DNA of 64,000 nucleotides from Armatimonadota bacterium (lineage in GTDB: Bacteria; Armatimonadota; Fimbriimonadia; Fimbriimonadales; Fimbriimonadaceae): assembly GCA_037138755.1 (NCBI GenBank), contig JBAXHT010000001.1:1521805-1585804 (forward strand). The letters run 5' to 3'. A program made the translations under genes and the position numbers. Below are positions 18,882 through 22,503 of the stretch, in pieces; within the stretch, counting starts at the first letter, position 1, and the number at the start of each line of letters is the position of its first letter. The notes below the pieces were generated by a model. That model ran no database searches. It saw nothing but the letters and a program-made list of their open reading frames with translations, and was not told the origin of the DNA.

Positions 18882-19544
18882 CTAGCTCAAAGCCATCTCT
18901 CGCAGCCCACTCGATACTTCAAACTTCGCCGCCGTCTTCGCCTGCACCTCGTCCAGCGAAACGCCCGGCGCGAGCTCCAGCAGGGTCATTGAAGTCCCTC
19001 GCTCAACCGAGAACACTGCCAAGTCGGTAATCACCAAATCAACGCAAGCTCTGCCTGTCAGGGGCAATGTACAAGCCGGAAGCACTTTTGAGTCTCCTGC
19101 TTTGTTGGTGTGTTCCATCACCACGACGACGCGCTTGACGCCTGCGACCAAATCCATGGCGCCACCCATCCCCTTGACCATCTTGCCAGGAATCATCCAG
19201 TTGGCAAGGTCGCCGGTCTCGGAGACTTCCATTGCTCCCAGAATGGACAAGTCGATATGCCCACCGCGAATCATCGCAAAGGAATCAGCCGAAGAGAAGT
19301 AAGACGATCCAGGAATTTCGGTCACCGTCTGCTTGCCTGCGTTGATCAAGTCTGGGTCTTCTTCGCCTTCAAACGGAAACGGCCCGAGCCCCAGCATCCC
19401 GTTTTCGGATTGCAACGCGACTTCCATTCCGTCCGGAATGTAGTTCGCGACCAAGGTCGGAATCCCGATTCCAAGGTTTACATAGAATCCATCGCGAAGC
19501 TCTTGCGCTGCTCGCTGTGCCAACTGATCTCGATTAAGCGCCAT
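18882..19544 (-). CDS. scoB: 3-oxoacid CoA-transferase subunit B
   Basis: A 220-residue beta subunit with the catalytic motif SENGMLG, where Glu47 would form the CoA thioester. GIGIPT at 25-30 and [14 protein letters not shown] are family blocks. With subunit A it moves CoA between succinate (or acetate) and a 3-oxoacid in ketone-body or acetoacetate catabolism. Unusually it is separated from its partner gene (20838-21539) by two genes. It overlaps the preceding gene by 11 nt. Confidence 0.92.
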
Positions 19545-20235
19545 TTTCCCTCAGCCTAGACGGATAGATCGTCCGATGCGAGAAGCTTACCGAAAGCGCC
19601 ATCCCCTGAAGCTTCATTTTCAAGGCTCCCTCGGCTGATCGATAACGCCCACTCATTCGCTCGACGACGAACCGATAGGGCTTCACTACAGTAAGATTTT
19701 CAGACTCGGCGAGATCGGCTTGGATCACAGCAGTGTCACGATCAAAACTCTCTAGGCGGTAGGTGATCTTTACCTCGCCAATCGCTGGATTTGGATTGAA
19801 GCTCGATTGCCAAATGTCGCCGATTCCAACTTCGCCCTTCGGCAGGAGTAAGTCGACAGTGGAACTTCCGAGCCCGGACATCCCCGCGAGCGTGAGCGCT
19901 TTTCCTGTCATATCGCACTCCTTCTCATACTTCAGCCCCTTCATCTCCTCGAAGGTCGTAGAAGCAGCGGCAAGTGCGCCGGATGCCATCACCGAGACCC
20001 CGGGGACATACATTGAGGTCTTGACTGCCTGGTCGGTGACGGAGATCACTCGTTCTGCGAAGTGCATTGTGGCAGCAACGGAGCCGTTCTCTCCAGCATC
20101 GATTGCGATCTTGACTTGATGCTCAAATCGCTGCTGTGGAAGCACGTTCCAACGCAGAGTAATCTTTTCATCCGCCGCAAAAGCTGCTGATGAGAGCACA
20201 AGTAGGGCACCAACTATACGAGCGCGAAGGTTCAT
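19534..20235 (-). CDS. Secreted protein of unknown function
   Basis: The start [20 protein letters not shown] at 20235 is chosen for its signal peptide; the frame opens to 20259 but that would cross the divergent gene start. The mature 213 residues are beta-rich ([36 protein letters not shown]), suggesting a beta-barrel or lipocalin-like fold similar to DUF6263-type proteins. No catalytic motif is seen. It overlaps scoB by 11 nt and is probably co-transcribed with it. Confidence 0.65.
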
Positions 20236-20242
20236 CCTGAAT

Positions 20243-20857
20243 ATGATAGCAACTGCCACTCTCGCCCTTGGCTTCCTTCATTCACAACCTCAATCCAAAT
20301 TGCGAGATTCGTTTCATTCCTATCCACCAAAGACCCTGTTTCTTCGCGCATTCAAGCAAGAAAAGGAACTCGAAGTCTGGGCAGGAACTCGCAAGCTGCG
20401 TCTGATCAAAACCTTTCCGATCCTCGCGGCGAGCGGTGTTTTGGGCCCCAAACTTCAGCGCGGTGACCGACAGGTGCCCGAGGGCTGGTACCACATCGAC
20501 CGCTTCAATCCGAAGAGCCGATTCCACCTGTCTCTGGGTCTGAACTATCCGAATGAGGCTGACCAGATCCGGTCCGCGGGCCGTGATCCTGGCTCTGACA
20601 TCTTTATCCACGGAAGCAACGTCAGCATTGGATGCTTAGCAATGGGAAATCCTGCGATTGAGGAGATTTATGGGGTTGCTCGCGACATGAAAACTCGTAT
20701 CCAAGTTGTGATCCTTCCGAGCCGACGGATTGACCCAAAGACCGAACTAGACAATCAACTCAAGGGGATCAACGACACATTCGAAACCAAGCACTTTGTT
20801 CCAAAAGTGAGAATCAATCGCTTCGGTGCCTACGAAATCACGCCTTTGGACGAGTAG
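20243..20857 (+). CDS. L,D-transpeptidase (YkuD/YafK type), exported
   Basis: A 204-residue protein with a short hydrophobic N-terminus ([11 protein letters not shown]) and the YkuD catalytic block [13 protein letters not shown], with His123 and Cys131. The segment [10 protein letters not shown] and [13 protein letters not shown] is typical of the YafK subgroup. It would cut or form meso-DAP crosslinks, or attach/remove lipoprotein in the periplasm. It is convergent with scoA, overlapping its end by 20 nt, and its ATG lies 7 bp from the divergent start at 20235. Confidence 0.88.
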
Positions 20858-21539
20858 TTCGCCGCTCGATGCGTTTTTCAAAACTCTCGCCAACAACAAT
20901 CCGGTTCACATAGATTGAAGGCGTGTGAATCTGGTCTGCATCCAGTTCGCCCACTTCAACCAGTTCCTCAACTTCTGCAATGCAGACGCGACCAGCCGTC
21001 GCCATCATCGGGTTAAAGTTCCGGGCCGTCTTTCTGTAGATCAGATTCCCCGAGCGGTCGGCTTTCCAGGCTTTGACGATCGACAGATCAGCCACCAGCC
21101 CTGTCTCCATCACGAAATCTTCGCCGCCAAACTGGCGCATCTCTTTCCCTTCGGCGACCAGAGTTCCGAAGCCGGTCTTGGTGTAAAAAGCGGGAATACC
21201 GGCGCCGCCCGCACGGATTCTCTCCGCAAGCGTTCCTTGAGGATTGAACTCAAGCTCCAACTCGCCCGAGAGGTACTGCCGCTCAAACTCCGCGTTTTCT
21301 CCCACGTAGCTACTGACCATCTTCTTGATCTGCTTGGTTTGCAGCAGAAGACCAAGACCAAAATCGTCCACACCGCAGTTGTTGCTGATCACGGTGATAT
21401 CCTTCACGCCCGAATCTCGCAGGGCAACGATCAGGTGCTCCGCAATCCCGCAGAGCCCAAAGCCCCCGGACATCACGGTCATCCCGTCAAAAACCAACCC
21501 CTCAAGAGCTTCCTCGGCACTGGGAAAAACCTTGTTCAT
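20838..21539 (-). CDS. scoA: 3-oxoacid CoA-transferase subunit A
   Basis: A 233-residue alpha subunit with [13 protein letters not shown] (about 25-38) and [15 protein letters not shown], the glycine-rich CoA-binding region of family I CoA-transferases. It pairs with the beta subunit at 18882-19544. The two genes are normally adjacent; here a convergent L,D-transpeptidase gene and another minus-strand gene lie between. Confidence 0.92.
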
Positions 21540-21563: not shown

Positions 21564-21618
21564 GGAGTGCGGCAACTCGTTGCCGCTTTACGTTGCGAAG
21601 GGCTCTGCCCGAGCTAAA
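21564..21618 (+). repeat. REP unit, left copy
   Basis: This 55-bp unit contains an 8-bp stem (21569-21576 with 21579-21586) and a second short GGGC/GCCC hairpin (21600-21610). It aligns without gaps to the right copy in inverted orientation, with identical last 19 bp. It ends 11 nt before the transposase start. Confidence 0.82.
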
Positions 21619-21629
21619 CTTGCTACCAG

Positions 21630-22160
21630 ATGAAAAGCTGGCCTCATGCCCCAGCCCGAGCCTGGATTGGACACGGCTCCTACATGATCACGGGCGGAAC
21701 TTACCAGCGCAAGCGGCTATTCGATACCTCCGCAAAACTCGAGTTACTGCAGGATATCGCGTTCGAAACCTGCCTCAACTACCAGTTCGAACTCCAGGCG
21801 TGGGCCTTTCTATCGAATCACTACCATCTGGTCGGCCACTACACGGGCCAAAGCCATAGCTTCAAGCAAATGATGAAAGCTATTCACGGAAAATCGAGCA
21901 TCGAACTGAATCGACTGGACCGCGAGCCTGGTCGAAAGGTCTGGTACCAGTATTGGGACTCGCACGTCACCTTCGAACGATCCTACTTGGCAAGAATCGC
22001 ATACGTTCATCGCAACCCGGTCAAGCACGGTCTGGTCTCGGTGCCTCAGGATTATGAGTTCTGCAGTGCCGCTTGGTTCGAGCGAACCGCTGAGCGACCC
22101 TGGTACGAGACGATCATGAGTTTTGACACGAGCGAAGTGAACGTCTTCGACGACTTTTAG
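21630..22160 (+). CDS. REP-associated tyrosine transposase (RAYT, Y1_Tnp/IS200-like)
   Basis: The 176-residue protein carries the HUH motif as HYH (H64, H66 in SNHYHLVG) and the catalytic tyrosine Y125 in YVHRNPVKHGL, the typical RAYT block. The N-terminal YMITGGTYQRKRLF and the segment WYQYWDSHVTFERSYL also fit. Such enzymes nick single-stranded REP hairpins and are thought to spread REP sequences. It is flanked by inverted REP units; its stop codon lies inside the right unit. It appears intact. Often single-copy and domesticated in hosts. Confidence 0.92.
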   Translation: MKSWPHAPARAWIGHGSYMITGGTYQRKRLFDTSAKLELLQDIAFETCLNYQFELQAWAFLSNHYHLVGHYTGQSHSFKQMMKAIHGKSSIELNRLDREPGRKVWYQYWDSHVTFERSYLARIAYVHRNPVKHGLVSVPQDYEFCSAAWFERTAERPWYETIMSFDTSEVNVFDDF

Positions 22161-22210
22161 CTCGGGCAGAGCCCGTCGCTATCGAAAGCGGAAATGAATT
22201 TCCGCACTCC
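22156..22210 (-). repeat. REP unit, right copy
   Basis: An inverted copy of the 21564-21618 unit. Its 8-bp stem pairs at all positions although it differs in four bases from the left copy, two base pairs having changed on both sides. It overlaps the end of the transposase gene by 5 nt. Confidence 0.82.
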
Positions 22211-22503
22211 GAAAAGAAGGAGCCAACCTCGGGGGAGAAGCGGCTCCTAATAGCATTGCAGTTTGTGGATAAGGTCTCCTTGCGGAGAACCATGCAATCA
22301 GACGCAACCGCATTGCCCGGGTTCCCTTTTGCTAAGCTCAAGGGGACTTTCGACCCTCACTGTTTGAGCGGGAAACTTCCAGGAAGCATCGGCAGACACA
22401 TGTTCACAAAACCTTAACCTTAAACCCCTAGACCTGAAGCGAAGTGTGAGGTTTAATATGAGGGTCGTAGGGCAAAGTGGCTCTGCGCATGGTTGGAATA
22501 CTC
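22211..22503 (+). ncRNA. Structured leader region upstream of the PEP-CTERM gene
   Basis: About 290 nt without a gene. It holds a hairpin 22218-22224/22242-22248; a nested element ATTGCA/TGCAAT (22255-22260, 22293-22298) around a TCTCC/GGAGA stem (22275-22279, 22284-22288) with a TTGC loop; CCCTT/AAGGG (22324-22328, 22340-22344); and a long-range 9-bp pair 22351-22359/22459-22467 enclosing a 7-bp pair 22420-22426/22450-22456. This suggests a folded 5' leader, perhaps regulatory. It does not match a riboswitch class I can recall. Confidence 0.4.

Follow-up and report, generated by a model that had tools for sequence, protein, structure and literature searches.

The RAYT gene and its flanking REP units

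The locus considered here lies in a window of 64,000 nucleotides (the whole stretch of DNA analysed) from a Fimbriimonas-like member of the Armatimonadota, placed in or near the genus Fimbriimonas, and consists of a RAYT (TnpA-REP) gene framed by two inverted 55-bp REP units (Table 1). The 176-aa ORF scores 91.2 bits against the curated NCBIfam RAYT model NF047646, above its cut-off of 80, and 31.1 bits against PF01797, and matches E. coli TnpA-REP (4er8) with a PDB E value of 6e-6. The HUH motif and single catalytic Tyr that mark RAYT proteins accompany this score, and the original prediction of a RAYT with HYH at residues 64-66 and Tyr125 is thereby borne out, both sites having been located. 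The gene occupies the same position in the nearest relative (G017), and comparison of the two orthologues gives a dN of 0.022 and a dS of 0.49 (NG86), with dN/dS at about 0.04-0.06. The host RAYT is vertically inherited under purifying selection and represents a domesticated, single-copy Y1/HUH transposase; most genomes with RAYT hold one gene copy, and no relatives were found in the viral contigs searched.

Table 1. Coordinates of the RAYT gene and REP units in the window
Feature	Position	Strand	Remarks
RAYT / TnpA-REP gene	21630..22160	+	176 aa; NF047646, PF01797, PDB 4er8
HYH motif of RAYT	21819-21827	+	residues 64-66
Predicted catalytic Tyr125 of RAYT	22002-22004	+	
Upstream REP unit	21564..21618	+	55 bp; CM R1 42.1 bits
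Upstream foot GGAGT	21564-21568		
Upstream hairpin 1	21569-21586		
Upstream TTT	21587-21589		
Upstream hairpin 2 core	21600-21610	+	GGGCTCTGCCC
Downstream REP unit, inverted	22156..22210	-	55 bp; CM R1 39.3 bits
Downstream foot	22206-22210	-	
Downstream hairpin 1	22188-22205	-	
Downstream hairpin 2 core	22164-22174	-	

The two units align without gaps and have the same terminal 19 bp, as had been claimed; they are identical at 46 of 55 positions, with nine differences, and 30 shuffles of the flanks never exceeded 27/55. The stem GCGGCAAC/GTTGCCGC of one unit becomes GCGGAAAT/ATTTCCGC in the other, and the two base pairs said to have changed on both sides with pairing kept are confirmed as C10-G19 to A10-T19 and C13-G16 to T13-A16. 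Hairpin 1 can be drawn as an 8-bp stem with a 2-nt loop, for which folding programs give 7 bp and a 4-nt loop. The RAYT reading frame ends within the downstream unit, with TAG as its stop codon (22158-22160), and inverted REP flanks are also found at the RAYT loci of relatives. Three features had escaped the earlier observations: a GGAGT foot that is not canonical, a second hairpin, and how widely the RAYT clade extends.

The window also carries a DnaA-box-like TTATCCACA (22264-22272, minus strand) some 55 bp beyond the downstream unit, conserved in G017. The stretch 18882-21539 contains two CoA-transferase-subunit-like ORFs (20838-21539; 18882-19544, minus strand) with two unrelated ORFs between them; CoA-transferase subunit genes are usually adjacent.

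Dispersed copies and REPIN turnover in the host genome

Copies in the host genome were counted by pattern searches and by searches with covariance model R1, which was built on the 26-nt hairpin, partly from the RAYT flanks. The pattern search returned 22 exact matches, mostly in inverted pairs of ~120 bp, and R1 detected 33 copies at E<=0.01, or 36 with the limit relaxed to E<=0.1; apart from the RAYT pair and 12 singles, these fall into 11 inverted doublets, each 112-123 bp long. Both arms reach E<=0.01 in ten doublets, one arm of the eleventh having an E value of only 0.034. The REP flanking the gene is thus dispersed through the genome, as is typical of RAYT/TnpA-REP systems, and the original call for further copies of the 55-bp unit is answered at the level of the hairpin. 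Because dispersed hairpins and inverted doublets were found, the outcome named as fatal to that prediction, a unit without further copies and with palindromes not conserved near orthologous RAYTs, is excluded. Classic REPs often exceed 100 copies per genome, and the low host number (~33) counts against a REPtron reading.

The doublets are chiefly intergenic, and several begin a few bp past stop codons. They form inverted REP pairs at short, regular spacing in many loci, and G017 is without doublets at the sites matching at least four of them (L009, L013, L019, and L027), all of which identifies them as REPINs. Another doublet (L012) is common to both genomes, and the G017 sites for L015 and L006, which hold other sequence, were left out of the scoring. 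Loss from G017 could in principle explain the missing doublets, and the intergenic flanks are too diverged for the boundaries of target-site duplications to be placed. For domesticated RAYTs, this combination of REPIN turnover with a RAYT that is itself conserved has been published before.

The host genome also holds a second Y1_Tnp domain (L001, G000:C1:1833515), in frame with an upstream PrmC/HemK methyltransferase-like ORF in a 507-aa open frame that is bracketed by direct CCCGGCG-CGCCGGG hairpins. L002 (G000:C3:65122) holds what looks like a separate REP family: a further RAYT-like gene there precedes a long palindrome, GCCTCCACAGT...ACTGTGGAGGC, present three times.

Conservation and covariation among relatives

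A RAYT relative is present in 22 of 85 family genomes; other phyla and Fimbriimonadaceae records supplied 17 additional loci, one of them near-identical. A search anchored on GGAGTG and CTTT alone (GGAGTG-N16-19-CTTT), with no requirement for pairing, yielded 78 copies lying no more than 450 bp from the 47 RAYT-homologue loci, near-duplicate records included, compared with 5 copies in the remaining 126 kb of sequence. The motif occurs at 34 of the 47 loci, so that the conserved flanking hairpins looked for at orthologous RAYTs do exist. Across 38 distinct flank hairpins of 26 nt, pairing holds in 92.4% of cells, as against 23-52% when the partner is slid; covariation is 0.582 versus 0.149 after shuffling, and two-sided changes affect 72 cells versus 22 in shuffles, counts that are inflated by kinship and repeated records. 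Nevertheless, the very different stems GCTAACGC, GCGCGAAT, and GCGAGTGC each pair, and the GGAGT 5' foot and CTTT 3' foot are conserved though unpaired. Covariation is also seen among 18 distinct hairpins of the host's own genome, but six of these are unpaired at pair 10-19. The original claim of direct evidence for hairpin-level selection was overstated from two units, yet the 38 flank and 18 own-genome hairpins truly covary. On this comparative evidence, stem covariation supports pairing, and part of it could come from templated mutation.

REPs are present in 16 of 17 genomes with RAYT and in 4 of 21 without it (Fisher p 3e-6), in a sample of 38 genomes chosen partly by RAYT presence. RAYT was undetected in four genomes that hold REP copies; one of these, G021, has 30 GGAGTG REPs and no relative of the host RAYT at E<=1e-10, and its copies may be an orphan REP population. 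Copies, up to 60, were present in 9 of 14 genomes reached via RAYT loci beyond the family search, and the four sister-clade genomes hold none.

In many Fimbriimonadaceae units, hairpin 1 is followed after 4-9 nt by a second palindrome, whose apex agrees, within each genome, with the apex of the first (2.56 of 4 letters versus 1.54 when genomes are permuted, 0/5000), by a measure devised after examples had been seen and applied to related genomes. The second hairpin is absent in G028, G063, G089, and G090. The apex common to both hairpins suggests a specificity element read in each by the same RAYT.

The GGAGTG clade and comparison with known systems

RAYTs associated with GGAGTG form a single clade in the tree (support 96/99) spanning Armatimonadota, Hydrogenedentota, Lentisphaerota, Chloroflexota, Fidelibacterota, and Pseudomonadota. 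Its sister is a small clade (98/92), and the feet located there read GGAGTAG or GGATTAG. Nearly all units carry GGAGT in place of the 5' GT[AG]G foot that is canonical in published REPtrons (Nunvar 2010 PMC2817692; Quentin 2018 PMC6006769). The GGAGT foot was not found in the text of the REP and TIR papers searched, and its novelty is claimed for that text only.

Loss of the Arg equivalent to R104 of E. coli TnpA-REP was considered as the cause of GGAGT and set aside. The Tyr-11 residue of the RAYT alignment is T/S/D/I in 41 rows and R in four sister-clade rows and L141, and at least four of the five Arg-bearing rows have GGAGTAG, GGATTAG, or similar feet. Arg is also missing from L146 (F), L148 (T), and L150 (L), further RAYTs of GTAG type, so that the hypothesis is no more than a lead. 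At the Omnitrophota RAYT loci L146, L148, L149, L150, L154, L161, and L168, nearly all double-foot GTAG palindromes flanking the RAYT have the DnaA-box consensus TTATCCACA a few nt before the foot, and all TTATNCACA matches in these loci adjoin such a palindrome. These neighbours could link REP copying to DnaA or replication.

The host system resembles GT(A/G)G REPtrons (PMC2817692; PMC6006769) in its single HUH-Tyr gene, two inverted palindromes, compensatory changes, and dispersed copies, and differs in its GGAGT foot and 3' CTTT, its phyla, and its fewer copies. Its doublets are dispersed, inverted, and present or absent between relatives, as in the REPINs of Bertels and Rainey (2011, PMC3116915), but are longer (~120 bp), and each of their ends contains a further, internal hairpin. 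TnpA-REP subclass 2.8 (Quentin 2018 PMC6006769) comprises eight proteins of cyanobacteria whose REPs have the canonical GT[AG]G foot and whose third motif is YIHYNP. In a comparison by motifs, the host RAYT matches its NHYH and W[YH] motifs and has the third as YVHxNP (Y-I/V-H-x-NP), while the host foot is GGAGT. TIRtrons (TIRYT; Di Nocera 2013 PMC3733652) likewise combine RAYT-like genes with non-GTAG inverted repeats, some double-palindromic and some multicopy, as far as their text describes them. Their shared motif GGGGWSAS, carried by just some published TIRs, is absent from the host units, and the GGAGT string was not found in their text, figures apart. The literature search returned no paper joining Armatimonadota and REP elements.

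Alternative explanations

Covariation could arise by templated mutation of quasi-palindromes, in which template switching within a strand rewrites one arm to match its partner and pairing is not selected; the hairpins would still be REPs. As near-perfect inverted repeats, REPs are the substrate of such a process, and imperfect stems do persist in the host. However, the conserved foot and CTTT are unpaired, and both hairpin-1 stems at the RAYT locus are identical in host and G017 despite base changes in the neighbouring spacer and flank, and we regard this explanation of the covariation as rather unlikely.

The identity of the elements is a separate matter. It is very improbable that the hairpins represent terminators of transcription, or RNA elements, that flank the gene by coincidence: the upstream hairpin fits a loose terminator pattern and several doublets lie close to stop codons, but this pattern occurs at chance level (1 found versus 1.2 expected), an Rfam search gave no match, and a constant GGAGT foot, inverted doublets, and cross-phylum RAYT linkage are not terminator traits. 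The hairpins may have a secondary terminator role. Still less credible is an ordinary IS200/IS605-type insertion sequence, or a decayed remnant, with subterminal hairpins. Such elements share the Y1/HUH superfamily and hairpins at both ends with the locus, but the model score is 23.6 bits against a cut-off of 55, the gene is mostly single-copy and vertically conserved (dN/dS about 0.05), the flanks are inverted REPs, and many dispersed copies are gene-free REPINs, so that this reading is already largely refuted.

A probable REPtron with a GGAGT foot

The locus is very probably a REPtron, in which a RAYT framed by inverted REP units is accompanied by genome-wide, non-autonomous REPINs of ~120 bp, most likely multiplied by the RAYT. 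The REP/RAYT system originally proposed is upheld because the family match lies above cut-off, the dispersed doublets are inverted, and flank hairpins are conserved at orthologous RAYTs. The system is ordinary in kind, its unusual features being the GGAGT foot and the tandem hairpins.

Assays of TnpA-REP have provided a model of C|T cleavage directed by a guide (PMC8266576), and by analogy the host RAYT should act on a folded strand with a cut at C|T. The REP unit would fold in single-stranded DNA during replication, and the RAYT would recognise stem and GGAGT on the folded strand. Tyr125 would then cut the conserved C|T at the 3' stem foot, for which CTTT supplies a candidate site. The A and G of GGAG would act as the guide, a part proposed for A3G4 in GTAG; the guide model pairs AG with CT, and this AG is retained in GGAG. 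Strand transfer would subsequently copy REPINs into intergenic sites.

Two REP-recognition strategies are known, namely bulge-reading (group 2) and loop-reading of perfect palindromes (group 3). We tentatively raise the possibility, itself more doubtful than probable, that a cross-phylum RAYT clade with GGAGT replacing GTAG as guide, and tandem hairpins read via a shared apex, represents a third. Assays of the way in which RAYTs select and cleave REPs cover only a few GTAG pairs so far, and a clade with a different invariant foot and fast-covarying stems offers natural variants for tests of the guide model. These findings extend REPtrons and REPINs to Armatimonadota and other little-studied phyla.
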